Below the pieces are notes generated by a model. That model made no database searches and was not told where the DNA came from. It saw nothing but the letters and a program-made list of their open reading frames with translations. A stretch of DNA of 64,000 bases from NCBI RefSeq assembly GCF_003116135.1, contig NZ_PDOA01000001.1, forward strand, positions 372,001-436,000. Reading direction: 5' to 3'. Source of the DNA: Teichococcus aestuarii. Its GTDB lineage: Bacteria; Pseudomonadota; Alphaproteobacteria; Acetobacterales; Acetobacteraceae. The translations under genes were made by a program, and so were the position numbers. Below are positions 4,057 to 19,123 of the stretch, in pieces (position 1 is the stretch's first letter; each line of letters begins with the position of its first letter).

Positions 4057-7000
4057 TCAGGCCTTGTCGGCGGCGCGGAGGCGCCAGATGGCGAAGGGCA
4101 TGGCGTGCGGGTCGAGGCGGAGACGGCGGTGGGTGCCCTGCCACACCTCCTCACCGCCCTGCATCAGGTTCTCGGCGACGAGGCCGGCGCCGTTCGGCAG
4201 GCCTATCGCGTACTGGGGCAGCTCGATATGGCTCTCCAGCGCCTGGTGCGGGTCCATCGAGACCGCGACCAGGACGACGTTCTCCCGCTCCGGCGTCATC
4301 TTCACGTAGAGCAGGATGCCCTCGTGGTTGGAGCGCAGGAAGGTGACGCCGAGATGCGAGTGCAGCGCCGGATTCTGCCGGCGGATGCGGTTCAGCGCGG
4401 TGATCTCGCCGGTGATGTTGCCCGGGCGGTCATAGTCCCACACCTTGATCTCGTACTTCTCGCTGTCGAGGTACTCTTCCTTGCCCGGCACGGGCCGCGC
4501 CTCGCACAATTCGAAGCCGTTGTAGACGCCCCAGAGGCCGGAGAGGGTGGCCGCCAGCGCGGCGCGGATCAGGTGCCCGGGCCGGCCGCTGTTCTGCAGG
4601 AAGACCGGGTTGATGTCGGGCGTGTTGACGAAGAAATGCGGCTTGAAGAAGTCGCGCACCGGCGGCTGGTTCAGCTCCTCCAGGTACTGCTGCATCTCCC
4701 AGGCGGTGTTGCGCCAGGTGAAGTAGGTGTAGGATTGGCCGAAGCCCACCTTGGCCAGCCGGTACATCACCTTCGGCCGCGTGAAGGCCTCGGAGAGGAA
4801 CACCACCTCCGGATCGCGCGCCCGCACCTCGCCGATCATCCACTCCCACAAGGGCAGGGGCTTGGTGTGCGGGTTGTCCACGCGGAACAGCTTGACGCCC
4901 TCGCCCACCCAGAACAGCACGATGTCGCGCAGCGTCAGCCACAGGGCCGGCATGGCGCCGGGCTTGTAGAAATCGACGTTGACGATGTCCTCGTACTTCT
5001 TCGGCGGATTCTCGGCGTAGCGGATGGAGCCGTCCGGGCGCCACTCGAACCATTCCGGGTGGTCGCGCAGCCACGGGTGGTCGGGCGAGCACTGGATGGC
5101 GAAGTCCAGCGCCAGCTCCAGCCCGTGCTGCGCGGCGGCGTCCCGCAGGCGGCGGAAATCCTCGATGGTGCCGAGCTCGGGGTGCACGGCGTCGTGCCCG
5201 CCCTCCTCGGAGCCGATGGCGTAGGGGCTGCCCGGATCGTCCGGCCCCGGCGTCAGGGTGTTGTTGCGCCCCTTGCGGTTCTTCTTGCCGATCGGGTGGA
5301 TGGGCGGGAAGTAGAGCACGTCGAAGCCCATGTCGCGCACCCGGGGCAGGGCGCGGATCACGTCGTCGAAGGTGCCGTGGCGGTTGGCGTCGCCGCTCTG
5401 CGAGCGCGGGAAGATCTCGTACCAGGAGGAGAAGCCGGCGGCGCGGCGCTCCACATCCAGCGGCAGCGGGGCCTCGCGCACGCGGAAGGGGCGGTCATCG
5501 GCCAGCGTCATCAGCCGCACCGTCTCGGGCGCGGTGAACAGGGCCACGGCCGTCGCGTCGTCGGCGCTGCGGAGCTGCGCGACCAGCCCGGCCAGCGCCT
5601 CCGCCTCGGCGCCGGAAAGGCGCGGCTGCGCCTTCTCCAGATGGATCAGCCCCTCCTGCCGCTCCAGCGCGATGCGCACGCCGGCGGCATGCTTCTTGGT
5701 GATCTCGTCGCGGAAGGCGGCGTAGTGGTCGACCCAGGCCTCCACCGTGTATTCGTGCCGGCCCACCCGCTCGGGCACGAAGGCGGCGGTGTAGATGTCG
5801 TTCACCGTGTGCACCATCGGCACCTCGCGCCAGCCCTCGGCGTCGGCGGCGCGCCAGAGCAGGCGGACGGCGATCTTGCCGTGCCCCTCGGTGAACACGT
5901 CGGCGGTGACGATCACCGCCTGGCCCACCGGGCGCTTCACCGGGAAGCGGCCCATGTCCACGGCCGGCTGCATGGCCTCGATGGCGATGCGGGGCGCCGA
6001 GATGGCCTGGCCGACGGCCTCTCCCTCATCGGCCAGAGGCAGCTGGATATCGGCCACGTCGTCGATCGGCATGCTGCGGATTTCTCCCGGCGCCAGCGCA
6101 AGCCGGCCCTCGGCGGTGATGGCGTTCTGCGGCAGGCTGCCCGGCCGGGGCAGCAATCCGGTGACCTGCGCGGCGGAGAGCTTCGCGGGGTGGCGCAGGG
6201 AGGGGTTCGCCAGCACCACCATCCGGCTGTCCGCAGCCTCGCGCAGCAGCGCCACCGGCGCGTGCGGGGCGGAGAGCAGGGCTGGCGCGGCGCGGCCCTG
6301 CGCGGCGGGCAGCCGGGCACGCTCCGCATTGGCCTCGCGCACCGCCCCCGTCAGGTCCAGCCTTGGCGCGCGGCGCAGCGCGGCGAAATCGCGGGCCTCG
6401 CCAGCGCCCTGGCCCATGCGATGGATGGCGCCATACTCATAGCCCATCGGCAGCATCCAGGCCGTGCCGGAGAGGGCCGCGAAGCGCAGGGCGCGCAGCG
6501 CGGCGCGGCCAGCCTCGGCACGGTCTGCATGGCGGGTGGCGAGGCGCGGGGCGAAGGGCGCCTCCGGTGCCGCCAGCAGCGGCGCCACGGGGGCGAGGCG
6601 GCTTACCTCGTCCGGCCACCACGCGGCCGAGAAATCCCACCAGGGCAGGGAGGATGCCACGAGGTCGAAGCCAGCGCCCGCCAGCCCCGGCACCGCGCCG
6701 GCCGGCAGGCCGGGCGCCCAGGCGATGAAGGCCGTATCCGGCGCCGCCTCGCGCGTGGCGGAGATCAGCGGCTGCCAGAACGCCTTCCCCGCGCCGGGCG
6801 AAAGGCAACGGAAGCCGGCGATGCCGGCCTGCGCCCATTCCACGAGCCGGGCGGCCCACCACGACCGCAGGGCGGCCGGCGCGGGATCAGCCAGCGCCAC
6901 CCCCGGCTGGCCACGCGGGTCCGGCGGCGCGTCCCGGTCGGGGTCGCCGGCCTTCCAGCCCGGGTTCTGGCGCAGCAGGACGGCGTCGCGCGCCATCCGG

Positions 7001-7389
7001 GCCGTGGGCAGGTCGAGGATCACCGAGAGACCCTGCGCGCGTGCCGCCTCGGCCAGCCCGCGCAGGGCCTCCAGCGCCGCGCCGCCGCCCAGCGCCGGGT
7101 GCAGCCGCGCGAGGTCGCGCGGCTGGAACAGGTCGCCCTCCAGGCCGGGCTCGAAAGGCGGCGCCAGGGCCACGCTGCCGAAGCCCAGCGCGGCGACGCG
7201 CCCAAACTCCTCCTTCCAGAGATCCATCGCTCCGGTGAGGGGTCCGACGGCAAGGGGGTTCATGTAATAGATGGCGTTGGGGAAAGCGGCATCAGGCAAG
7301 AGAGATGCGTCCTTTGTCGCCGGTGGCGTGGAAGGCTGTGGGCTCGCAACGCCGGGCGCCGCCCAAGGTTGCGTGAGGAAGGGCCGCAA
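4057..7389 (-). CDS. glgE: Alpha-1,4-glucan:maltose-1-phosphate maltosyltransferase with extra N-terminal domain
   Basis: GlgE transfers maltose from maltose 1-phosphate to a growing alpha-1,4-glucan. At 1110 residues it is about 430 longer than classical GlgE. The GlgE core begins near residue 460. It holds nucleophile D838 (FRVDNPHTKP), acid/base E867 (FLSEAFTRP) and D925 (NTPDINPVF); the 29-residue spacing of the first two equals that of Streptomyces GlgE. Residues 35-430 look like a second, degenerate GH13-type barrel (FPNAIYYMNPLAVGPLTGAM onward). The start is TTG at 7389, chosen because GGGAGG lies 8 bases upstream on the minus strand. It is first in the glgE-treS-glgB operon and divergent from egtB. 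Confidence 0.95.
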   Translation of the reverse strand: MRPFLTQPWAAPGVASPQPSTPPATKDASLLPDAAFPNAIYYMNPLAVGPLTGAMDLWKEEFGRVAALGFGSVALAPPFEPGLEGDLFQPRDLARLHPALGGGAALEALRGLAEAARAQGLSVILDLPTARMARDAVLLRQNPGWKAGDPDRDAPPDPRGQPGVALADPAPAALRSWWAARLVEWAQAGIAGFRCLSPGAGKAFWQPLISATREAAPDTAFIAWAPGLPAGAVPGLAGAGFDLVASSLPWWDFSAAWWPDEVSRLAPVAPLLAAPEAPFAPRLATRHADRAEAGRAALRALRFAALSGTAWMLPMGYEYGAIHRMGQGAGEARDFAALRRAPRLDLTGAVREANAERARLPAAQGRAAPALLSAPHAPVALLREAADSRMVVLANPSLRHPAKLSAAQVTGLLPRPGSLPQNAITAEGRLALAPGEIRSMPIDDVADIQLPLADEGEAVGQAISAPRIAIEAMQPAVDMGRFPVKRPVGQAVIVTADVFTEGHGKIAVRLLWRAADAEGWREVPMVHTVNDIYTAAFVPERVGRHEYTVEAWVDHYAAFRDEITKKHAAGVRIALERQEGLIHLEKAQPRLSGAEAEALAGLVAQLRSADDATAVALFTAPETVRLMTLADDRPFRVREAPLPLDVERRAAGFSSWYEIFPRSQSGDANRHGTFDDVIRALPRVRDMGFDVLYFPPIHPIGKKNRKGRNNTLTPGPDDPGSPYAIGSEEGGHDAVHPELGTIEDFRRLRDAAAQHGLELALDFAIQCSPDHPWLRDHPEWFEWRPDGSIRYAENPPKKYEDIVNVDFYKPGAMPALWLTLRDIVLFWVGEGVKLFRVDNPHTKPLPLWEWMIGEVRARDPEVVFLSEAFTRPKVMYRLAKVGFGQSYTYFTWRNTAWEMQQYLEELNQPPVRDFFKPHFFVNTPDINPVFLQNSGRPGHLIRAALAATLSGLWGVYNGFELCEARPVPGKEEYLDSEKYEIKVWDYDRPGNITGEITALNRIRRQNPALHSHLGVTFLRSNHEGILLYVKMTPERENVVLVAVSMDPHQALESHIELPQYAIGLPNGAGLVAENLMQGGEEVWQGTHRRLRLDPHAMPFAIWRLRAADKA

Positions 7390-7432
7390 TCCCGCAACCT
7401 CCCGGCGCCGGCACCGTTAGCGCTCAGGCCGG

Positions 7433-8716
7433 GTGTGTGCCCGGCCAACCACGATGAGGGAGGGCGCCCATGCCAGACTTCCATCCCGGCCACTTCCGGC
7501 ACTGGCGGAACGCATCCCGGTGCTGAGCGTCGCGGAGAAGGAGGACGTCGTCCTCGCCGCGCGCTGGCGGCGGGTCAGGCAGCACACCGACCGCCTCGCG
7601 GCCGCCCTCAGCGATGAGGATCAGTGCATCCAGTCGATGCCGGATGCGAGCCCCGCCAAATGGCACCGGGCCCACACCACCTGGTTCTTCGAGCAATTCG
7701 TGCTGGGCCCCAACCTCCCCGGCTACACCCCCTTCGACGAGCGCTTCTCCTACCTGTTCAACTCCTATTATGAACAGGTCGGGCCCCGCCACGCCCGGCC
7801 GCAGCGGGGGCTGCTCACCCGGCCCTCGGCCAGCGAGGTGGGAGAGTACCGCGCCCATGTGGACGCGGCGATGGAGCGCCTGCTGGAGCGCGGCGCGACG
7901 GCGGAGCTGGCCGATCTCGTCGAGCTGGGCCTGCAGCACGAGCAGCAGCACCAGGAGCTGCTGATCACCGATCTGCTGCACGCCTTCTCCTTCAACCCGC
8001 TGCGCCCCGCCATGATCCCGGACTGGCAGGAGCCGGCGCCCCCCTCGCGCGAGAGCGCGGCGATGCAGCCGCTGGAGGGCGGCATCGTGCGCATCGGCGC
8101 GCTGCATTCCGGCTTCGCCTTCGACAATGAGCGGCCCTGCCACGACGCGCTGGTGCCCACCGGGCGCATCGCCTCGCAGCTGGTGCGCAACGCCGAGTGG
8201 TGTGCCTTCATCGCCGATGGCGGCTACCGCCAGCCATTGCTCTGGATGGCCGAGGGCTGGGGCGCGGCGCAGCAGGGCGGCTGGGAAGCCCCGCTCTACT
8301 GGGAGAAGCGCGGCGGCCAGTGGTGCCAGATGACGCCCGGCGGGCTGCGCCCGCTCGATCCGGCGGCGCCGGTGCGGCATGTCAGCTGGTACGAGGCGGA
8401 TGCCTTCGCCCGCTGGGCCGGCAAGCGCCTGCCGACGGAGGAGGAGTGGGAGGCCGCCGCCCGCCGCGGCCTGCTGGAGGATGCCGGCCGCTTCGTCTGG
8501 GAATGGACCGGCAGCGCCTACCGCCCCTATCCCGGCTTCCGCCCGCCGCCGGGCGCGGTGGGCGAGTACAACGGCAAGTTCATGATCAACACCATGGTGC
8601 TGCGCGGCGGCTCGCTCGCCACGCCGCCCGATCATGCGCGGCTGACCTACCGCAATTTCTTCCATCCCGACCGGCGCTGGCAGTTCACCGGCCTCCGCCT
8701 CGCCGAGGAGCAGTGA
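7433..8716 (+). CDS. egtB: Ergothioneine biosynthesis iron-dependent sulfoxide synthase EgtB
   Basis: EgtB joins the sulfur of cysteine or gamma-glutamylcysteine to trimethylhistidine using iron and oxygen. The DinB-like N-terminal part carries the probable iron ligands H81 (HRAHTTWFFE), H169 and H173 (QHEQQHQE). The C-terminal part is a formylglycine-generating-enzyme fold ending in NFFHPDRRWQFTGLRLAEE. The start is unclear: GTG 7433 opens the frame, ATG 7454 and GTG 7520 are alternatives, and none has a good ribosome site. The only strong one (GAGGGAGG, 7456-7463) serves a short frame from ATG 7470. The stop overlaps the egtD region, giving a two-gene operon. Confidence 0.93.
   Translation: MCARPTTMREGAHARLPSRPLPALAERIPVLSVAEKEDVVLAARWRRVRQHTDRLAAALSDEDQCIQSMPDASPAKWHRAHTTWFFEQFVLGPNLPGYTPFDERFSYLFNSYYEQVGPRHARPQRGLLTRPSASEVGEYRAHVDAAMERLLERGATAELADLVELGLQHEQQHQELLITDLLHAFSFNPLRPAMIPDWQEPAPPSRESAAMQPLEGGIVRIGALHSGFAFDNERPCHDALVPTGRIASQLVRNAEWCAFIADGGYRQPLLWMAEGWGAAQQGGWEAPLYWEKRGGQWCQMTPGGLRPLDPAAPVRHVSWYEADAFARWAGKRLPTEEEWEAAARRGLLEDAGRFVWEWTGSAYRPYPGFRPPPGAVGEYNGKFMINTMVLRGGSLATPPDHARLTYRNFFHPDRRWQFTGLRLAEEQ
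7470..7526 (+). other. Possible 18-residue leader ORF overlapping the 5' end of egtB
   Basis: ATG 7470 follows GAGGGAGG at 7456-7463 and opens an 18-codon frame that stops at 7524-7526. The stop overlaps GTG 7520 of the egtB frame as GTGCTGA. This could be a coupled leader peptide. It could also be the true egtB N-terminus displaced by a one-base sequence error. No function is recognised. Confidence 0.3.
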
Positions 8717-8721
8717 CCCGC

Positions 8722-9669
8722 ATGCGTGCCGTCGCCACCGCCAAGGCCAGCGCCTTCGACCCGCTGGTTGCCGAGACCGCGCTGCGCGGCCTCGCCGCCC
8801 CGCGCAAGACCCTGCCGCCGCATCTGCTCTACGATCCCGAGGGCTGCCGGCTGTTCGAGGCCATCACCACCCTGCCGGAATACTATGTGACCCGCACCGA
8901 GCTCGCGCTGCTGCGGCAGGTGGGGCCGGAGCTGCGCGCACGCATCGGGCGCGGCGCCTCGGTGGTGGAATACGGCGCGGGCTCCGCCACCAAGGCGGCA
9001 TTGCTGCTCTCCGCCCTGGAGGCGCCGGCCGCCTACGTGCCGCTCGACATCGCGGAGGGGGCCGTGAAGGCCTCGGCGCGGGAGATCCGCGCGCGCTTCC
9101 CCGCCGTCGCGGTGCATCCGCAGGTGTGCGACTTCAACCGGCGCATCGCTCTGCCGCCGCTGCCGGCACCGCTGCTGGGCTTCTTCCCCGGCTCCACCAT
9201 CGGCAATCTCGACACCGAGGCGGCGCTGGCCTTCCTGGGCGCGGTGCGCGCCTCGCTCGGGCAGGGGGCGCGCTTCCTCGTCGGGGTGGACCTGCCGAAA
9301 TCGCCGGCGGTGCTGATCCCCGCCTATGACGACGCCGCCGGCGTCACAGCCGCCTTCAACCTCAACCTGCTGCACCGGCTGAACCGCGAGGCGGCGGCGG
9401 ATTTCGACCTGGCGCGGTTCTCACACCAGGCGGTGTGGAACGTGGCGGAGAGCCGCATCGAAATGCATCTGCGCAGCGACACCGCGCAATCCGTCTCGGT
9501 GGCCGGCGAGACGATCCATTTCAGCGCCGGCGAGAGCATCCATACCGAGAACAGCTACAAGCGCGCACCGGAGGCCTTCCAGGCCATGGCGCGCGAGACG
9601 GGTTGGCGGCCCGAGGCAGTGTGGCAGGACCCGCAGGGCCTGTTCTCCCTGCACCTCCTGGCGGCCTGA
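8722..9669 (+). CDS. egtD: L-histidine N(alpha)-methyltransferase EgtD
   Basis: EgtD methylates histidine three times with S-adenosylmethionine to give hercynine, the substrate of EgtB. The 315-residue protein shows the SAM-binding loop VVEYGAGSATK, the YVPLDIAEGAVKASA strand, the family signature FFPGSTIGNLDTEAALAFL and, near the C-terminus, SIHTENSYKR. ATG 8722 is preferred because GAGGAG at 8705-8710 sits 11 bases upstream. GTG 8713 would overlap the egtB stop but lies too close to that site. No egtC or egtE is nearby, and EgtB-EgtD pairs are common in proteobacteria. Confidence 0.95.
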   Translation: MRAVATAKASAFDPLVAETALRGLAAPRKTLPPHLLYDPEGCRLFEAITTLPEYYVTRTELALLRQVGPELRARIGRGASVVEYGAGSATKAALLLSALEAPAAYVPLDIAEGAVKASAREIRARFPAVAVHPQVCDFNRRIALPPLPAPLLGFFPGSTIGNLDTEAALAFLGAVRASLGQGARFLVGVDLPKSPAVLIPAYDDAAGVTAAFNLNLLHRLNREAAADFDLARFSHQAVWNVAESRIEMHLRSDTAQSVSVAGETIHFSAGESIHTENSYKRAPEAFQAMARETGWRPEAVWQDPQGLFSLHLLAA

Positions 9670-9694
9670 GCCGCAGGAGGGGAGGCCGGCGGAT

Positions 9695-9717
9695 GGGGGG
9701 AGGCGCTGCCTTCCCCC
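9695..9717. terminator. Hairpin between convergent egtD and DUF2383 gene
   Basis: GGGGGGAGGC (9695-9704) and GCCTTCCCCC (9708-9717) pair over 10 positions, one of them a G-T wobble, around a 3-base loop. It sits between two convergent genes with no T-run on either side, so a bidirectional terminator is only inferred. Confidence 0.42.
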
Positions 9718-9727
9718 TGCATCCTGC

Positions 9728-10366
9728 TCAGCGGTAGCGGTGGGAGGAGCGGCTCCGCAGCAGCCGCGCCGTCAGCACGGACACGGCGGTGACGACGATG
9801 GCGGAGAGGATCGGGTTGCTCGTCACCGGCTGGGTCAGGCGGTTGAAGCGCGCGACCAGCCCGCTGCCTTGCAGGGCCAGCGCCTGCTCCTGCGGCTCGT
9901 CATGGTCCAGCATGGCGGCATAGCGGTCGCGCGTGGCGCGCACCTGGCGGTGCTGGCGCTGCAGCAACTGGCGTGCCTCCATCGGCAGGTCGGCGGCCAG
10001 GGCCTCGTCATACGCATCTTCCAGCGCCGCCTCGCCGCGCACCACCTCGCGCAGCACCCGCAGCCGGCCCTGGCCGAACAGCGTACCCTTCAGGTCGAGG
10101 AAGGCACGGTGCGCCGCCCCCAGCGTGCTGCCGCCCTTGCGCGGCGCCTCGTCATGCTGCCGCAGCAGGGCATCCACATCCTGCGCCATCTTCTCGCGCT
10201 TCTCCGCGAGTTCCGTGAACTCGATACGGAGGAACCGGTCATGGGTCAGGCGGCGGCCCTGGTCGTAGCCGCGGTGGCTGTCATGCAGGTAGGCGCTGAG
10301 GGTCTTGAGGGCGGAGGGCTCGATCCCGTCGGCGGCGGCGACCATCTTATCTTCGCTTGTTGTCAT
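9728..10366 (-). CDS. DUF2383 (PA2169-type) four-helix-bundle stress protein
   Basis: This 212-residue protein begins MTTSEDKMVAAADGIEPSALKTLSAY and has the long helical, ferritin-like pattern of DUF2383 proteins over about residues 15-150. One hydrophobic helix lies near the C-terminus (NPILSAIVVTAVSVLTARLL), suggesting a membrane anchor. Its biochemical role is unknown. ATG 10366 is chosen over the longer open frame because GGAG lies just upstream and because an EcfG-type promoter lies 53 bases before it (10444-10419). It appears to be part of the general-stress set with the neighbouring small genes. Confidence 0.85.
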   Translation of the reverse strand: MTTSEDKMVAAADGIEPSALKTLSAYLHDSHRGYDQGRRLTHDRFLRIEFTELAEKREKMAQDVDALLRQHDEAPRKGGSTLGAAHRAFLDLKGTLFGQGRLRVLREVVRGEAALEDAYDEALAADLPMEARQLLQRQHRQVRATRDRYAAMLDHDEPQEQALALQGSGLVARFNRLTQPVTSNPILSAIVVTAVSVLTARLLRSRSSHRYR

Positions 10367-10418
10367 GCCTGTTCTCCAGCTTACAGGGCCATGCTGGGCA
10401 CGGCCGCTCTGCCGGAAG

Positions 10419-10444
10419 AACGCCCGAGACCCGCCGATCGTTCC
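10419..10444 (-). promoter_or_regulatory. EcfG-type stress promoter upstream of the DUF2383 gene
   Basis: On the minus strand GGAAC (10444-10440) is followed after exactly 17 bases by CGTT (10422-10419). This matches the GGAAC-N16/17-CGTT consensus of alphaproteobacterial EcfG sigma factors. The implied leader before ATG 10366 is about 50 bases. Confidence 0.65.
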
Positions 10445-10571
10445 AGCTTGGCCGCCCACGAGCGTGATCTCGGCAGGGCCGGAGGCGGTAGAAGATGAGG
10501 CCCTGCCGGCCCGGCACCCTGCCGGCCCGGCACAGGGCATGGCCGCGGGCGCGCCTCCCCGATTCCGCTCC

Positions 10572-10874
10572 TCAGGGCTTGGTCGTCTCGGGGGGCGGGT
10601 TCATCGGGCCGGCCTTGCCGTACTGGGTGTCGGGCAGTTGCCGCTGCGCCCCTTCCGGCAAGGGCTTCGGATCGGGGTCCTGCTCGTGCGAGGTGCCGGG
10701 CGAGGGAGGTTCCGGGCTGGGTTCCGAGGGAGCATTGGCTGGGTCCCTCGGCGCCACGCCACCGGCTCCGGTTTCCGGCGTCAGCTGGGCCTGCTTCGCC
10801 GCGCGCTGCCCCTCCGGGGCCTCAGCCTCGCCATCGCCATGGGGCGGACGCGGCGGGGGGCGGGTGTTGGACAT
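10572..10874 (-). CDS. Small proline-rich hypothetical protein
   Basis: This 100-residue protein is not recognised. It is hydrophilic and very rich in Pro, Glu and Gly (MSNTRPPPRPPHGDGEAEAP at the start), has no membrane segment and is probably disordered. AAGGAG lies at good spacing before ATG 10874, which supports translation. It follows the 70-residue gene by 19 bases and is probably co-transcribed with it and with the KGG-repeat gene. A stress-related role is inferred from position only. Confidence 0.6.
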   Translation of the reverse strand: MSNTRPPPRPPHGDGEAEAPEGQRAAKQAQLTPETGAGGVAPRDPANAPSEPSPEPPSPGTSHEQDPDPKPLPEGAQRQLPDTQYGKAGPMNPPPETTKP

Positions 10875-10893
10875 GTCTGGCTCCTTGCCCCGT

Positions 10894-11106
10894 TCAGGCG
10901 GCGCTGGCCACTTTGGCCGGCATCAGGGCCATGCCGCGGTCGCGCTCCACCTCAGGGCGCGGCCGCAGCTGCGTCAGCACGGCGCCGGCTTCCCGCGCCA
11001 TCTGCCGATGCGCCGCCAGACGCTCCGCCAGCGCGGCGCGCAGAGCGTAGGAGGGGCTGTCGGCGGCGGAACGGGTGGTCAGGGGCACGATGCTGTCGAT
11101 GGCCAT
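10894..11106 (-). CDS. Small hypothetical protein (70 residues)
   Basis: This protein is not recognised. It is a short, mostly helical, positively charged protein (AALAERLAAHRQMAREAGAV in the middle) with no cysteine and no membrane segment. AGGAG precedes ATG 11106. It lies 62 bases after the KGG-repeat gene and 19 bases before the proline-rich gene, and no separate EcfG-type promoter is seen in front of it. It is therefore probably read from the promoter at 11572-11548. Confidence 0.6.
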   Translation of the reverse strand: MAIDSIVPLTTRSAADSPSYALRAALAERLAAHRQMAREAGAVLTQLRPRPEVERDRGMALMPAKVASAA

Positions 11107-11168
11107 GGAAGGCTCCTGCGGGGCCGGTTGGGGGAGGGCGGACCGGCGCTGCCGCGCCGGCCAGCGTC

Positions 11169-11459
11169 TCAGGTTTCGTCGGAAGGCGGGCTCTTCTGCT
11201 GCGTGCGGCCGTGCGTGGCCTGGCCGCCCTTGCGGCCCGCCTGCGCGGCGAGGGTGCGATCGCGCGAGAAGGACCGGTCGGCAGCCTGCACGGCCTGGCC
11301 ACCCTTGCGGCCGGCCTCGGCGGCGAGGGCCGGATCCTGCGCGAAGCTCCGCTTGGCGGCGGGCACGCTCTGGCCGCCCTTGGAAGCAATGGTGCGCTGC
11401 TTCGCCTCATCCATTGATGCGAAGCCTTGCTTGCCACTGCCGGTGCGGGACTGGGACAT
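11169..11459 (-). CDS. KGG-repeat stress-induced protein
   Basis: This 96-residue hydrophilic protein contains three KGG motifs (ASKGGQSV, AGRKGGQAV, AGRKGGQAT). The last two sit in a repeated unit of about 24 residues, and the protein is rich in Gly, Ala, Gln and Lys. This is the pattern of the KGG/Con-10 family of general-stress proteins such as E. coli YciG, whose mechanism is not settled. ATG 11459 is chosen over an upstream in-frame start because AAGGGAG lies before it. An EcfG-type promoter lies about 90 bases upstream. It probably leads a three-gene unit. Confidence 0.85.
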   Translation of the reverse strand: MSQSRTGSGKQGFASMDEAKQRTIASKGGQSVPAAKRSFAQDPALAAEAGRKGGQAVQAADRSFSRDRTLAAQAGRKGGQATHGRTQQKSPPSDET

Positions 11460-11547
11460 GGGAAACTCCCTTCGGGAGCCGCGCGGCTTGCCACACGGCC
11501 GGAGGTGGACAACGAAGCCCGGCACCGCTTGGCCCAGGCTTGCCATC

Positions 11548-11572
11548 AACCGCTCCGCCGTGGCCAAGTTCC
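11548..11572 (-). promoter_or_regulatory. EcfG-type stress promoter upstream of the KGG-repeat gene
   Basis: On the minus strand GGAAC (11572-11568) is followed after 16 bases by GGTT (11551-11548). The -35 element is exact and the -10 keeps the GTT core. It lies 89 bases before ATG 11459. Confidence 0.55.
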
Positions 11573-11643
11573 GGTTGCAGGGCCAGCTCGGCCACTCCCC
11601 CCGAAAACTTCCCTGTGATTGGTCCCGCAGCCATCGCCTTCGG

Positions 11644-11847
11644 TCAGCTGAAGGCGGCGGCCAGCGCGAAGGCGACGATCACCAGCACGAGCGAGATCAG
11701 CAGCACCCAGCGCATGTGGCCGAAGGTGACGCCCTGGCGTGCCTGGGTGGTGTCGATGGGCTTGTCCGGCATCGGGGCGCTGTGATGTCCCGGCGGCGGC
11801 TCGATCACCCGCTCGCGCGCGGGAGGGTCATTCTTGGTATCGGACAT
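11644..11847 (-). CDS. Small single-pass membrane protein
   Basis: This 67-residue protein has a hydrophilic, proline-rich N-terminal part of about 40 residues followed by one transmembrane helix (RWVLLISLVLVIVAFALAAA) that ends the protein. The family is not identified. ATG 11847 is preferred over the longer frame because GAGGAG precedes it. It is divergent from the PRC-barrel gene. No GGAAC promoter was found on its own strand. Membership of the stress set is inferred from position. Confidence 0.65.
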   Translation of the reverse strand: MSDTKNDPPARERVIEPPPGHHSAPMPDKPIDTTQARQGVTFGHMRWVLLISLVLVIVAFALAAAFS

Positions 11848-12503: not shown

Positions 12504-13073
12504 TCAGAAGCTCAGCCGGCGCTGTTCCTCGGCGGCCAGGGCGCGGGCGCTGGGACGGAGCGCCATGCGGCGCTGTGGCACGGAACGCTGGAGCTTTTCC
12601 TCCTCCAGCAATGCCAGCAGGGCGGAGCGGGCGCGGTGGACGCGGCTCTTGACGGTTCCCACGGCGCAGTTGAGCACCCTCGCCACATCTTCGTAGGGCA
12701 TGTTGGAGCCGGCGACGAGGGTGAGGATCGAACGCTGGTCCTCCGGAAGCCGGTGGAAGATCCGCTGGAAATCTGAAAGCTCCAGCCCGTCCTCCTGCCG
12801 TGCCCCGACCGGCACGCGCTCCATCTCCCCTTCGTCGAACTCCCGGGTGGCTTTGCGCTTGGCGACGAATTCGTTGAGGAAGCGGTTGCGGAGGATCGTG
12901 AACGCCCAGGCCTTGAAGTTTGTTCCTGGCTGGTAACGATCGGCCGCGTGGAGGATGCGAAGCACGGCATCCTGCACCAGATCATCCGCATCATGACGGT
13001 TGCGCGTCAGAGAACGTGCATAGGCGCGGAGATCAGGGAGACAGCCGAGAAGCTCGTCGTCGATCTGAATCAT
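12504..13073 (-). CDS. ECF sigma factor, EcfG (general stress response) type
   Basis: This 189-residue sigma-70 family protein has region 2 (DADDLVQDAVLRILHAADRY and FKAWAFTILRNRFLNEFVAKR) and region 4 (LPEDQRSILTLVAGSNMPYE and NCAVGTVKSRVHRARSAL). The ELSDFQRIFHRLPEDQRS linker and the CAVGTVKSRV helix fit the EcfG (ECF15) group, which drives the alphaproteobacterial general stress response under PhyR-NepR control. No phyR or nepR is in the window. ATG 13073 (MIQIDDELLG) fits the usual length. Three EcfG-type promoters lie within 3 kb, which supports the subgroup call. No such promoter was found for the gene itself. Confidence 0.85.
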   Translation of the reverse strand: MIQIDDELLGCLPDLRAYARSLTRNRHDADDLVQDAVLRILHAADRYQPGTNFKAWAFTILRNRFLNEFVAKRKATREFDEGEMERVPVGARQEDGLELSDFQRIFHRLPEDQRSILTLVAGSNMPYEDVARVLNCAVGTVKSRVHRARSALLALLEEEKLQRSVPQRRMALRPSARALAAEEQRRLSF

Positions 13074-13287
13074 TGTGACCTGTCTTGCAGCGGAGACAAA
13101 CGGGAAACACCCCCCGGCGTGGGAAGTTGCGGAAAGAGGGCGAAGCTGCCGCGATGCGGCGTGGGCGCGCAGGCGCCGCACGACGCTAGGATGGCGCCAG
13201 CGAGCTTCGCCTTCACATCTGCCGGCGGTCGGCGGATGGGCGTCTCGTCCAACAGGGGCGGCACGGCCGTCCCGCAGGAGAATCCGC

Positions 13288-14247
13288 ATGTACTTCGATC
13301 GCACCACCGCTCCGCAGGCCGACAGCAACGCCACCGGCCGCGAGGCCGCCCTGGGCGCCGCTTCCAGCCCGCTGCCGATGGAGGCACGCCTCGACAACCT
13401 CGAGCTGCGGCTGGAGGCCGGGACCCGCACCGCCTGGTGCACCATGCGCCCGCAGGGCCGCCCGAGCTACACCCTGGCCCTGATGCAGGACGTGCACCGC
13501 ATGCAGGATATCATGGCCCGCTTCCACGCCGAGCACGCGGCGGCGGGGCAGGCGCCGTCCGAGTGGTTCGTGATGGCCTCGGCGGTGCCGGGCATCTACA
13601 ACCTCGGCGGCGACCTAGCCCATTTCGCCGAGCGCATCCGCTCGCGCGACCATGCCTCCCTGGTGCGCTACGGCCACATCGCCGTCGAGGCCATCCACCG
13701 CAACCACATCGCCTTCGGCCTGCCCATGGTGACCATGGCGCTGGTGCAGGGCGACGCGCTGGGCGGCGGATTCGAGCACGCCCTCTCCTTCGACCTGATC
13801 GTGGCCGAGCGCAGCGCCAAGCTCGGCCTGCCGGAGATCCTGTTCAACATGTTCCCCGGCATGGGCGCCTACAGCTTCCTCTCGCGCCGGCTGGACCGGA
13901 AGCGGGCGGAGGAGATGATCACCTCCGGCCGCCTCTACGGCGCCGAGGAGCTGCACGCGATGGGCGTGGTGGACGTGCTGTCCGAGGATGGCGAGGGCGA
14001 GGCGACGGCGCGCGACTACATCGCCCGCCACAGCCGCAAGCACAACGCGCACACCACCCTCTACCGCGCCCGCCGGCGGGTGAACCCGGTGACGCTGGAG
14101 GAGCTGCGCGACGTGGTGGAGATGTGGGCCGCCGCCGCGATGAACCTCGGCGAGACGGACCTGAAGAAGATGGGCCGCCTGGTGGCGGCGCAGGAGCGGC
14201 GCCTGGGCGGGATCGGCTCCCCCGGCCTCGCGACCGCGGCGGAGTGA
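13288..14247 (+). CDS. rpfF: RpfF-type diffusible signal factor (DSF) synthase, crotonase family
   Basis: RpfF makes cis-2-unsaturated fatty-acid signals by dehydrating 3-hydroxyacyl-ACP and releasing the free acid. This 319-residue protein keeps both catalytic glutamates of Xanthomonas RpfF. They are E163 in ALGGGFEHAL and E183 in GLPEILFNMFPGMGAYSFL, 20 residues apart as in E141/E161 of the known enzyme. An EIWxxxAMQLGE-like region is also present (VEMWAAAAMNLGETDLKKMG). ATG 13288 has CAGGAG upstream. It is convergent with rpfC, the same arrangement as in Xanthomonas. An ordinary enoyl-CoA hydratase is unlikely given this signature and the rpfC neighbour. Confidence 0.9.
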   Translation: MYFDRTTAPQADSNATGREAALGAASSPLPMEARLDNLELRLEAGTRTAWCTMRPQGRPSYTLALMQDVHRMQDIMARFHAEHAAAGQAPSEWFVMASAVPGIYNLGGDLAHFAERIRSRDHASLVRYGHIAVEAIHRNHIAFGLPMVTMALVQGDALGGGFEHALSFDLIVAERSAKLGLPEILFNMFPGMGAYSFLSRRLDRKRAEEMITSGRLYGAEELHAMGVVDVLSEDGEGEATARDYIARHSRKHNAHTTLYRARRRVNPVTLEELRDVVEMWAAAAMNLGETDLKKMGRLVAAQERRLGGIGSPGLATAAE

Positions 14248-14310
14248 AGGCAACGCGCCGGACGGGCGCCCGCCAGGGTCGGTCGGGGCTGCGCGCCAGG
14301 GGAGGGGCGC

Positions 14311-16884
14311 TCAGCCGCGGTGACTTTGCGGGTCCACTTCCTGGAGCAAGGCGCGGCGCGTGCGGTCCAGCTCGGCCCTGGCGCGCAGCGCGAGCTCCGC
14401 CCCCTCCCGCATCAGCGCCTCCCGCCCCATCTTGCGCCACTCCTCGCACAGGCGGCACAGCGCGGCGGCGCCGATGTTGGCGGCGCTGCTGCGCAGGGCG
14501 TGCGCCTCCGCATGGAAGCGCGGCGCATCGCCGGCGATGGCGGCGGCGGAGATCGACTCGATCAGCTCCGCCGCGTCGGACAGGAAGTCCCGCGCCAGCC
14601 CGTCCACGAACTCCTCGCCGCCGAGCTTGCGGAGATTCTCCAGCGTCTCGGTGTCCAGCGCCGGGGTGGTCATGCGGAAGCGGGGATGGGAGGCGATGTC
14701 GGCCACCGGCGCCGCGGCCCCGGCCGTGCCGCCGCGCGGCGGCCGGGCATTGGCCTCGACGATCCGCAGCAATTCCTCCGGCTGCACGGGCTTGATCACA
14801 TGCCCGTCCATGCCCGCCTCGGCACAGCGGCGGGCGCTTTCCTCCGTGGCGTCTGCGGTCAGCGCCAGGATAGGCAGGTGCGGCTGGCCCAGCGCCATGA
14901 CGCGGAACAGCTTGGTCGCCTCGATGCCGTCCAGCCCCGGCATGTTCACGTCCATCAGCACCAGGTCGAAGCTGTCCGCCTCCTGCTCCAGCATGTCGAG
15001 CGCGGCGTCGCCATCATCGGCCAGCCGGGCCTCGTGGCCGGCGCGCTCCAGGATCTTGGCGACGACGCGCTGGTTCACCCGGCTGTCATCCGCGACCAGC
15101 ACGCGCAGGCGCCGCCCCGGCAGCGCAATGGGAGCACCGGGCTGAGCCGTGCCCGGCTGGGCGGGGCCCGGCTGGGCGGAACCCGGCGCCGCCGCGCCCT
15201 CTGGCCCGGCGGCGGGAGCGGCTTCCGCCGGCGCGGCGGGGCGGGGGCTGAGCGCCAGGGCCAGGCGCAGCGCATGGGCGATCTCGTCCGGCGCGGCCTC
15301 GGGCCGCAGCGCCGTGACATGCTCGCGCCGCATCGGCTCCGGCGCCAGCCCCTGGGGCAGGGGGGTGATCAGCACGCGGGGATGCGCCGGCGTCTCGGGC
15401 GGCAGGATGTTGCCGGGGCCGTCATAGGTGAGCAGCAGGCAGCGCCCCTCCGGCCCCTCGGGCCGGGCGCGCAGCAGGGTGGCGGCCTCGGCCGGGGTGG
15501 CGGCGTGGCGAACCTCGATGCCGAGGCTGGCCAGCGTCTCGGTCAGCGCGGCGGCGCGGATCGGCGCCGGGTCCAGCAGCACCGCGGCCAGCCCCGCCAG
15601 GCTCGCGGGCGCCACCGGCTCCGCCGGGTCCAGCAACAGGTCGAAATGGAAGGTGCTGCCGAGGCCGGGGCTGGAGCGGACGCCGATCTCGCCCCCCATC
15701 AGCCGCACCAGCCGGCGGCAGATGGCCAGGCCCAGCCCGGTGCCGCCGAAGCGGTTGATGATGCTCGGATCGGCCTGGGTGAAGGTCTCGAAGATGCGCT
15801 CCTGCGCCTCGGGCGCGATGCCGATGCCGGTGTCGGTCACCTCGGCGCTCAGGCGCAGGCGGCGGCCGGTGGCATCGGCGGGGGTGGCGTCCAGCGTCAC
15901 CGTCACCCCGCCGGTCGCGGTGAATTTCACCGCGTTGCTGGCCAGGTTCAGCAGCACCTCGAGCAGGTGCCGCCGGTCGCCGCGCAGCCGCAGCGGGGTG
16001 CGGGCGCTGGCATGGACGGAGAAGCGCAGCCCCTTCTCGCGGCACTGGCTGGCCATCAGGGCGCGCAGCTCGGCCAGCATCCCGGCCACCTCGAAGGGCG
16101 CGTCATCCGTCGGCATCCGCCCCGCCTCGATGCGGGACAGGTCGAGGATGTCGTCGATCAGCGCCAGCAGGGAGCGCGCGGCGCTGTCCACCGTGCGCGT
16201 CATCTCCTGCTGCTCGGCATCGAGCCTGGTGCCGCGCAGCAGGCCACCCATGCCGATGATGGCGTTGAGCGGGGTGCGCAGCTCATGGCTGACGCTGGCC
16301 AGGAAGAGGGATTTGGCGCTGTTCGCCTCCTCCGCCTGCTGCTTGGCGAGGGAGAGCTTGCGGATCAGCGTGCCGGCGTAGAGCGGCAGGATCATCAGCC
16401 CGATCAGCAGCCCGACGGCCAGGTGCGGCTGCCCGGACCAGTAGGGCGTGGCGAGGATGACCCCGCCGAAGCCGGCCAGCGCCGCGGCCATGGCAATGCG
16501 CAGCCAGCGCAGCCCGAAGCGGAAGCCGTTGCCGAACACCACCCACAGATAGATGGGCCAGAACATGGCCACCGGCTCGCCGCCCAGGAAGAGCTGCCAG
16601 GACAGGAAGCCGCAATCGAGCAGCAGGGCGGCGAGGCGGCGCGGCTGGGAGATGCCGGGGGAGACCAGGATATGCCCCAGCACGCCCAGCGCCAGCGTGA
16701 CATAAAGCGCCATCACCAGCAGCGCGCTGCGGGACTCCGCCGAGCCGTCTACCAGCAGCACGAGGATGATGATCACCGCGAAGGCCAGGCGGTTGAAGCT
16801 CATCTCGTGCTCGCTGTCCGGCCGGCCGCGCAGCCGTGCGCGCAGGCGGGACAGCAGGCCGCGCCGGGGGGGCGGGGCGCTCAT
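14311..16884 (-). CDS. rpfC: RpfC-type hybrid sensor histidine kinase for DSF
   Basis: This 857-residue kinase has an N-terminal input region of about five membrane helices (residues 30-175) that resembles RpfC. It includes [14 protein letters not shown] and [19 protein letters not shown], the parts that detect DSF in Xanthomonas. Then come HisKA with H200 ([11 protein letters not shown]), HATPase ([28 protein letters not shown]), a receiver with D645 ([11 protein letters not shown]) and a C-terminal HPt with H795 ([14 protein letters not shown]). Every phosphorelay residue is present. It starts 7 bases after the GGDEF-EAL regulator gene and is surely co-transcribed; an RpfF partner lies downstream. 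Confidence 0.9.
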
Positions 16885-16891
16885 GGCACCC

Positions 16892-19123
16892 TCAGGGCCC
16901 GCGCAGCAGTTGCGGGCCGGCGTCCTGGCCCTTGCTCTCCGGCAGCTCCGGCCGGGCGGCCGCCGCCAGGCTGGCACGCGGGATGGCGACGGGATGGCCC
17001 ATCAGCTCGGCGAAATCCGCGGGTGGCACCGCCTCGCTGTAGTAGAAGCCCTGCACCTCGTCGCAGCCCTCGGCCTTCAGCTGCAGCAGCTGCGCCTCGG
17101 TCTCCACACCTTCCGCGATCACCTGCAGGCGCAGCATATGGCCGAGCTCCACGATGGTGCGCACGATGGCCGCGTCGTTCGGCTCCGTGGTCATGCCGCG
17201 CACAAAGGACTGGTCGATCTTGAGCCGGTCTATCGGAAAGTTCTTAACATAGTTCAGCGAAGAGTACCCGGTTCCGAAGTCATCGACCGAAATCCGCACC
17301 CCGCGCGTGCGCAGCGTCTGCAGCACGGCCGCCGTCTCCGGCGCCTGCTCCATCAGGATGCCCTCGGTCAGCTCGAGGTCGAGCTGCGCCGGGTTCATCC
17401 CGCTTTCCGCCAAAGCCCGCAGGACCATCGCCGCCACGTCCTGCCGGCGGAACTGGATGGGGGAGAGGTTCACCCCCATGCGGATCGGCGGCAGGCCGGC
17501 CTCCCGCCAGCGCACTGCCTGGCGGCAGGCCTCGCCCAGCACCCATTCGTTGATGGGGCCGATCAGCCCGCTCTCCTCCGCCACGGGCAGGAAGCGGCCA
17601 GGGCCCATCAGCGTCTGGCCGGAGCGCTGCCAGCGCAGCAGCGCCTCGGCGCCGGTGATGCGGCCGGTGCGCAGGTCCACCTGGGGCTGGTAGTGCAGCA
17701 GGAACTCGCCGCGGGCGAGGCCCTCGCGCAGCGCCGCCTCGATCTGCATCGCCTCGCGTGCCCGCGCATCCATGGCGGCGGCGAAGAAGCGCCAGCCATT
17801 CCGCCCCTCCGCCTTGGCCCGGTACATGGCGAGGTCGGCGTTGCGCAGCAGCTCGGCGGCGTCCGTGCCGTCCCGCGGGTAGAGGGTGATGCCGATGCTG
17901 GCGCCCACCGTCAGCGTCTGGCCGCCGCAGTGGAAGGGTTCCGACAGGCTGGCCACCACCTTCTCGGCCAGGGTGGCGGCCTCCTCCGCCTGGCTGATGC
18001 CGGTCTGCACGATGGCGAACTCGTCGCCGCCCAGACGGGCGATGATGTCGTTCTCCTGCGTGACGTGGCGCAGGCGCTCGGCCACGGCGCGCAGCAGCTC
18101 GTCGCCCAGGTGGTGGCCGAAGACGTCGTTCACCGGCTTGAAGCGGTCGAGGTCGAGGAAGAGGAGGGCGAAGATGTGGTCGCCCCGGCGGCCGCGCGCC
18201 AGCTCCCGCCGCAGCCGGTTGCGCAGGAAGGCGCGGTTGGGCAGGCCGGTGAGCGGGTCGTGGTGGGCCAGGTGGCCCAGCCGCTGCTCGGCATGCTTGC
18301 GGTCGGTGATCTCGAGCGAGGTGGTCAGGACGGATTCGATCTCGCCGCGGGCGCCCCGCAGCGGCGCCTTGGTGGTGATGAAGATGCGCGCCTGGCCATC
18401 GGCGTCCACCGCCTCCTCCTCGCGGCCCGGCAGGGCCTCGCCGGATTCGAAGACCAGCAGGTCGAGCGCGCGGGAGCGGCGGCCGCGCTCGGGGCCGAAC
18501 AGGGCTTCCACCGGGTTGCCCACCAGCGCATCGGGCGTGGAGCCGGAGAAGCGGGCCTGCCAGGCATTGACGAAGACGCAGCGCCCCTGCCGGTCGGCCG
18601 CGCTGATCATGGCCGGGACCGTGTCGATCACCTGCGCCAGGGCGCGGCGGCTGTGGCGCAGCAGCTCCTCCTGGCTGCGGGCGCTGTCCTCCAGCTCCTG
18701 CTCCAGCGAGGCGGCGCGGCGCTGGATGATCTGCTGCTGCCAGCGCATCCGCAGCAGGTTGCGCGCCCTCGTCATGAACTCGTAATGGTCCACGGGGCTG
18801 AGCAGGAAGTCGGTGGCGCCCGCCTCCAGGGCGCGCAGCCGGTAGGCACGGTCGTTGTAGGCGGTGATGACGATCACCGGCACATCCGCGGCACCCGAGC
18901 CGGGCCCGAGGCTTCGCAGCTGGCGCGTGAACTCCGCCCCGTCCATTTCCGGCATGCGGAAGTCGGTGACCACCAGATCGGCGCTGTTGTCACGCAGCCA
19001 ATCGAGGGCCCGCCTCGGGTCGCCGAAAGCCTCGACCCTCACATCCTTGTCGAGCGACACGGCCAGTCTGGCGAAAATGTCCCGGTTGGTCGTCCTGTCG
19101 TCCAGGATCAGGATCGTTGCCAT
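16892..19123 (-). CDS. REC-PAS-GGDEF-EAL response regulator, probable output of the DSF system
   Basis: This 743-residue protein has four parts. They are a receiver (1-125, phosphoacceptor D54 in [12 protein letters not shown]), a coiled linker and PAS domain (about 130-285), a GGDEF domain with intact GGDEF at 365-369, and an EAL domain with intact EAL (493-495), [17 protein letters not shown] and GVET. Both cyclic-di-GMP synthase and phosphodiesterase sites look usable. The inhibitory I-site reads QEND instead of RxxD, so product inhibition may be lost. It heads the operon with rpfC and takes the place of RpfG, which uses HD-GYP in Xanthomonas. Which activity dominates cannot be read from sequence. 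Confidence 0.93.

Follow-up and report, generated by a model that had tools for sequence, protein, structure and literature searches.

A probable diffusible signal factor locus of Teichococcus aestuarii with a REC-PAS-GGDEF-EAL regulator in the place of RpfG

Signalling by the diffusible signal factor (DSF) is divided into two core pathways, RpfC-RpfG and RpfR, in passages of PMC4504480, which also describe RpfS of Xanthomonas as a histidine kinase that binds DSF through a PAS_4 domain. For the alpha-proteobacteria, passages of PMC8895600 that give no domain architectures report an RpfC-RpfG pair on the basis of KEGG. Leptospirillum and Acidithiobacillus are genera for which part of a survey that also covered Acidiphilium (PMC9040811) reports DSF systems. 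Here we describe a locus of Teichococcus aestuarii, a member of the Acetobacteraceae (assembly GCF_003116135.1, 5.2 Mb in 106 contigs), that lies in a 64,000-nucleotide stretch of contig NZ_PDOA01000001.1 (positions 372,001 to 436,000 of the forward strand); this whole stretch is referred to below as the window. The locus consists of three genes, encoding the synthase RpfF, a hybrid histidine kinase and a regulator with the architecture REC-PAS-GGDEF-EAL. The DSF module formed by these genes is real, conserved and rewired, and we consider it probable that it serves DSF-type quorum sensing and that its RpfG swapped an HD-GYP output for PAS-GGDEF-EAL. A literature search, whose coverage leaves out most subscription journals, returned no title or abstract opening among the matches listed that names a REC-PAS-GGDEF-EAL regulator.

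Synthase, kinase and regulator

The rpfF gene (13288-14247, plus strand; ATG at 13288, stop codon at 14245-14247) encodes a putative DSF synthase of 319 residues in the crotonase superfamily, assigned to the crotonases by Pfam and matching NF006452 at 365.8 bits (cut-off 177). Its best match among solved structures is Xanthomonas RpfF (3m6m, 7e-52); RpfF-type structures match at 7e-52 to 3e-48 and ordinary enoyl-CoA hydratases with E-values of at least 1e-16. Part of PMC9040811 gives the catalytic glutamates of the Xanthomonas campestris pathovar campestris enzyme as E141 and E161, and two glycines as G86 and G138. The glutamates of the window protein, E163 and E183, lie 20 residues apart, as the original prediction had noted, and together with G108 and G160, the glycine equivalents located by spacing, they show no variation among 30 aligned RpfF rows, the window included. 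A profile of 30 rows scores 233-525 bits on RpfF-like rows and at most 66 bits on 10 of the 12 other crotonases of the same genome that it matches; at three further loci it finds weak crotonase matches only (29-48 bits). A 90-row tree splits 85 RpfF-family rows, with support 99, from five hydratases of the window's own genome, which sit on long branches. The tree, the score gap and the catalytic residues rule out an ordinary enoyl-CoA hydratase; the original prediction had staked its reading on the family of this crotonase, and it is to RpfF that the protein belongs.

Convergent with rpfF and separated from it by 63 bases is the gene for an RpfC-type hybrid histidine kinase of 857 residues (14311-16884, minus strand), in which Pfam recognizes HisKA, HATPase, REC and Hpt; the domains comprise an input region (1-180), HisKA-HATPase (190-418), REC (595-709) and HPt (763-844). 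The phosphorelay residues H200, D645 and H795 are the same in all 27 aligned kinase rows, and the RpfC receiver (3m6m_D, 2e-21) is the third best match of the kinase receiver among solved structures. The membrane input region (16345-16884, minus strand) is homologous to RpfC and RpfH: residues 1-180 are 35-38% identical (E 3e-27 to 9e-32) to the inputs of RpfC and its neighbour RpfH at two xanthomonad loci, both with an RpfF that passes the NCBI equivalog cut-off. The RpfC likeness that had been proposed for the kinase and its input thus holds; as to the five helices also proposed, a hydropathy scan of this hydrophobic region of about 180 residues finds six segments above threshold, two of them weak. 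Directly before the first membrane helix stands the DSF-sensing motif R21-P-D23-S24-E25-H-E-M28 (16801-16824, minus strand). Passages of PMC5391125 list Arg15, Asp17, Ser18, Glu19 and Gln22 of RpfC as essential for DSF perception and report that S18T retained activity; the corresponding residues here are R21, D23, S24, E25 and M28, so that four of the five are kept. Across 29 aligned inputs Arg is found in 21, Asp in 21, Ser or Thr in 21, Glu in 29 and Gln in none.

The regulator gene (16892-19123, minus strand) lies 7 bases upstream of the kinase gene on the same strand, its stop codon ending at 16892 and the kinase ATG starting at 16884, and thus occupies the place of rpfG, as originally described. 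Its 743-residue product contains REC (4-119), PAS_4 (167-276), GGDEF (286-442) and EAL (463-697), all of which exceed the Pfam cut-offs. The receiver (18767-19114) has D54 at 18962-18964 and, at 18797-18799, S109 in the position of the switch lysine; PAS_4 (18296-18625) is followed by the GGDEF domain (17798-18268), whose GGDEF motif is intact, and by the EAL domain (17033-17737) with intact EALLRW, ELTE, DDFGTG and KIDQS, which we take to be its catalytic motifs. Against a close relative (L031) the ratios of nonsynonymous to synonymous substitution rates (dN/dS) are 0.07 for REC, 0.04 for PAS, 0.10 for GGDEF and 0.07 for EAL, indicating purifying selection on all four domains. The PAS domain has weak matches only to solved structures, the best being BvgS (E 0.001), and an assignment of its ligand from structures was dropped for this reason. 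The position of the GGDEF I-site does read QEND, but the proposal built upon this, that synthesis would not be product-limited, is weak: RxxD occurs in 11 of the 24 GGDEF-bearing regulators, window included, the other 13, among them that of the window, reading differently; the state varies within the window's genus, and one lineage has no GGDEF-EAL at all. The I-site, not being conserved, was rejected as a key feature. With 12 EAL matches in the genome at E 1e-20 and one HD_5 match (a 238-residue protein on another contig), the regulator is one of many cyclic-di-GMP proteins.

Descent of the regulator, exchange of its output and distribution

The receiver of the regulator is 41% identical to an HD-GYP RpfG receiver (1e-25). 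In a tree of 75 receivers the 28 regulators of the window type form one branch (support 99), and these 28 together with 14 RpfG receivers are split with support 100 from 33 others, 29 of them from the window's genome and four being kinase receivers; the tree has 141 columns and many open forks, and the two branches named are among its ten starred ones. Because the receiver branches with HD-GYP RpfG receivers, the regulator is, judged by its sequence, RpfG by descent with the output exchanged.

The exchange recurs in related alpha-proteobacteria, as judged by motif and domain matches. The 31 regulators from family genomes include 24 with both GGDEF and EAL, motifs intact (three read ESL for EAL), and seven that stop after PAS, these PAS-only rows forming one clade of the RpfF tree (98). 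The GGDEF-EAL version is also found in named alphaproteobacteria, among them Kaistia soli, Stappia sediminis, Pseudovibrio denitrificans, Microvirga, Gluconacetobacter and Sphingorhabdus. In a class-wide sample of 20 loci, motif patterns served to distinguish the outputs, with confirmation by Pfam for two of the kinases: a histidine-kinase motif marks 16 regulators and EAL three, and one locus (L293) has no matching receiver. Pfam gives REC-PAS-HisKA-HATPase for six proteins (L190, L191, L192, L200, L283, L290); L224 is REC-HisKA-HATPase with no PAS match, and L227 has HisKA_2. The PAS-only versions retain PAS, as do, by tblastn, 14 of the 16 class-sample kinase versions, with a fifteenth added by Pfam. 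A search for HD-GYP motifs came back empty for the window as well as for the 40 loci of the family, the 7 alphaproteobacterial loci of the phylum sample and the 20 loci of the class sample. Since relatives attach this receiver to a histidine kinase or to a bare PAS, cyclic-di-GMP would be one of several outputs of this branch. A further version was seen at L186 of Roseomonas populi (5678-11761), a REC-PAS_4-GAF-PAS_3 regulator that lies beyond rpfF and divergent from it, not before the kinase. The REC-PAS part has its nearest named relatives, 80-81% identical, in Roseomonas sp. 18066 and in Pseudoroseomonas deserti, a species since renamed Teichococcus deserti and placed in the Roseomonadaceae.

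Loss of the switch lysine goes together with the change of output. In ordinary receivers this lysine contacts the phosphoryl group and couples it to output. It is missing from all 52 alphaproteobacterial receivers (Ser 47, Thr 3, Ala 1, Met 1), namely from 31 of 31 family regulators, the window's included (Ser 27, Thr 2, Ala 1, Met 1), from both phylum-sample receivers (Ser) and from 19 of 19 in the class sample (Ser 18, Thr 1); these loci were found via RpfF or the kinase input, and the receiver was then recognized by its similarity to that of the window. The phospho-acceptor aspartate is retained in all 52 (33/33 and 19/19), and none of 33 receiver rows departs from Asp54, the acid pair D8/D9 or T87. 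HD-GYP RpfG receivers of the same samples have lysine in seven of seven cases. A set of 80 named loci was left out of the lysine counts because a receiver pattern allowing Ser/Thr had been used in part to seed it; 17 of these have an HD-GYP motif, two by a looser pattern only, and in the 16 where the site is readable it is Lys in 14 and Arg in two, both Thiobacillus-type. As a control, the 74 other receivers of the window's genome (E 1e-10) have lysine in 71 of the 72 that can be scored, two matches that stop before the site, both from a batch of 44, having been dropped; the remaining receiver has Arg and lacks the Asp too. The counts are not independent of one another, and the loss may be a single change on the tree.

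RpfF and the kinase input travel together. RpfF was found in 73 and the RpfC-type input in 75 of 299 family genomes (thresholds E 1e-25 and 1e-15, respectively), with both in 68, RpfF alone in five, the input alone in seven and neither in 219 (Fisher p ~1e-52, an overstated value because the genomes are related). The suggestion in the original prediction that an Rpf set is unusual in the Acetobacteraceae is therefore wrong. At 40 RpfF loci, taken from 40 of the 73 positive genomes, all three genes are present in 28, with rpfF convergent in 25 of these; two of the 12 remaining loci (L036, L045) are at contig ends. At loci with the kinase remote from rpfF, the regulator adjoins the kinase in six of eight, and in genomes with an input and no RpfF match (seven, some incomplete) it stands beside the kinase in five of five loci. 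This pairing away from rpfF makes the regulator most likely the partner of the kinase. In the class sample the input occurs in 24 of 385 genomes, the window's own included, and 20 of the 23 others were taken (G820, G882 and G728 were left out). Among seven other genomes of the window's genus two lack both RpfF and the input, and a more distant version is present in one, a patchiness which points to the module being lost or exchanged at times; in the RpfF tree, Kaistia and Ancylobacter rows branch with a row of the Acetobacteraceae family (98), which suggests transfer.

Several loci have features of their own. L167 (4912-9345) has a tandem of three RpfC-type inputs ahead of rpfF; its record is titled Mycobacterium sp. 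KBS0706, its RpfF falls among alphaproteobacterial rows, and the title looks wrong. L309 (8220-11447), from a genome with no RpfF match (G186), keeps the REC-PAS protein and the kinase, the receiver match of the latter being split across two frames, as it is in L197 (Siccirubricoccus deserti). At L106 an RpfC-type kinase lies by rpfF and an HD-GYP motif was not found nearby, at L110 and L111 no rpf partner was found near rpfF, and at L116 a different kinase adjoins rpfF. In the window itself, a sigma-70 family factor that looks ECF-like (extracytoplasmic function; PhyR_sigma2 match) is encoded upstream of rpfF on the opposite strand (12504-13100, minus strand), and a histidine-specific methyltransferase at 8716-9669 (plus strand; Methyltransf_33, 345 bits), a family which we take to be that of the ergothioneine protein EgtD. 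A sigma-70 consensus search yielded no promoters, the outcome that shuffled sequences predict.

Signalling mechanism and competing explanations

In the mechanism that we propose, RpfF would make a cis-2-unsaturated fatty acid, which the RpfC-type kinase would detect through the RPDSE stretch and the membrane helices. A relay through His200, Asp645 and His795, all of them present, would then transfer the phosphoryl group to Asp54 of the regulator, and because this receiver has no switch lysine, phosphorylation is probably passed on to PAS and the output differently than in classical receivers. PAS_4 would provide a second input, and what it senses may be DSF, which RpfS is reported to bind. The output would be cyclic-di-GMP turnover, with a roughly even chance that the signal leads to net hydrolysis by EAL, as in the RpfG and RpfR systems.

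A number of observations weigh against reading the locus as a rewired DSF module of this kind. The RpfF equivalog NF053515 scores 204 bits, below its cut-off of 550, a value reached by three of 398 phylum-sample genomes, all of one xanthomonad genus. The ligand may differ from DSF, because Gln22 is Met here and Gln is absent from all 29 inputs, of which just 21 retain the Arg, 21 the Asp and 21 the Ser/Thr. Having lost its lysine, the receiver may no longer switch in response to phosphorylation. In the comparison with L032, which is more distantly related but of the same genus, dN/dS is higher (0.54 for GGDEF and 0.32 for EAL), and in two of the eight unlinked loci the kinase has no regulator beside it, the regulator lying near rpfF instead.

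A wider form of the proposal, which we regard as possible and offer tentatively, is that the Alphaproteobacteria possess a separate DSF branch in which a lysine-less RpfG receiver and PAS make up a two-input gate placed before unlike outputs (GGDEF-EAL, kinase or none), signalling independently of the lysine and reading the fatty acid outside by RpfC and inside by PAS.

Rather doubtful is a scheme in which the receiver is a phosphorylation-independent dock, with RpfC holding the regulator, and RpfF as well, at the membrane, and fatty acid on PAS_4 acting as the switch in the manner of RpfS and RpfR. Such a scheme would agree with the loss of lysine in 52 of 52 receivers, with the retention of PAS in PAS-only and nearly all class-sample kinase versions, with the existence of a REC-PAS-only lineage next to the kinase (the seven family regulators in one clade) and with the binding of DSF to PAS_4 of RpfS in the passages of PMC4504480 cited above; but a pure dock needs neither the Asp54, D8/D9 and T87 that are invariant in 33 of 33 receivers nor the relay residues that are invariant in 27 of 27 kinases. 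A shade less credible, and in our view unlikely, is a plain swap of one phosphodiesterase for another, in which the receiver works as that of RpfG and Ser replaces Lys without consequence. The gene order, the descent of the receiver and the intact EAL motifs all suit a plain swap, and lysine is not absolute in RpfG, as the two Thiobacillus-type HD-GYP loci with Arg attest; however, it is otherwise nearly fixed (71 of 72 genome receivers, seven of seven HD-GYP RpfG), and its loss accompanies the output change. That the crotonase is a catabolic hydratase beside unrelated signalling genes is highly improbable, since superfamily membership and the missed equivalog cut-off are outweighed by the tree, the score gap, the catalytic residues, the co-occurrence and the gene order.

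Beyond what had first been noticed here, the preferred reading of a rewired DSF module takes in the lysine loss, the regulators with PAS alone or PAS plus kinase, the conservation of the DSF-sensing motif and the distribution across the Alphaproteobacteria. It would extend DSF-type systems to many alphaproteobacteria for which the literature search showed no DSF work among the matches listed, and a whole branch that dropped the lysine and kept the phospho-acceptor offers a natural series for probing the role of this residue in receivers.

Comparison with described DSF systems

In this locus sensing of the RpfC type is combined with a PAS-GGDEF-EAL output; its relatives retain sensor and receiver and show the output exchanged. 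With the RpfF-RpfC-RpfG system of Xanthomonas, as presented in passages of PMC4504480, it shares RpfF, an RpfC input with a DSF-sensing motif, a hybrid kinase with REC and HPt, a receiver of RpfG descent and the convergent gene order; it differs in having PAS-GGDEF-EAL for HD-GYP, no receiver lysine and Met for Gln22. The rpfFCG cluster of Leptospirillum, in the part of PMC8357829 that describes it, likewise brings rpfF, rpfC and rpfG together outside the xanthomonads, but with an HD-GYP RpfG and with all genes in one direction.

The RpfF-RpfR systems of Burkholderia, Cronobacter and others resemble the window in having a PAS-GGDEF-EAL protein in the rpfF locus. Five RpfR-like proteins, so named from their position beside rpfF, were scanned and have no receiver, whereas the window protein has one, and their PAS falls under PAS_9, PAS or PAS_7 ahead of PAS_4. 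In a GGDEF-EAL tree whose deep forks are open, three classical-looking RpfR rows stand apart from the window type, and a derivation of the output from RpfR is thus unsupported. With RpfS the likeness lies in PAS_4 as a possible fatty-acid sensor, and the REC-PAS-kinase versions of relatives resemble, in architecture and not in sequence, an RpfS with an RpfG receiver in front. The window regulator itself fits neither of the two core pathways, RpfC-RpfG or RpfR.

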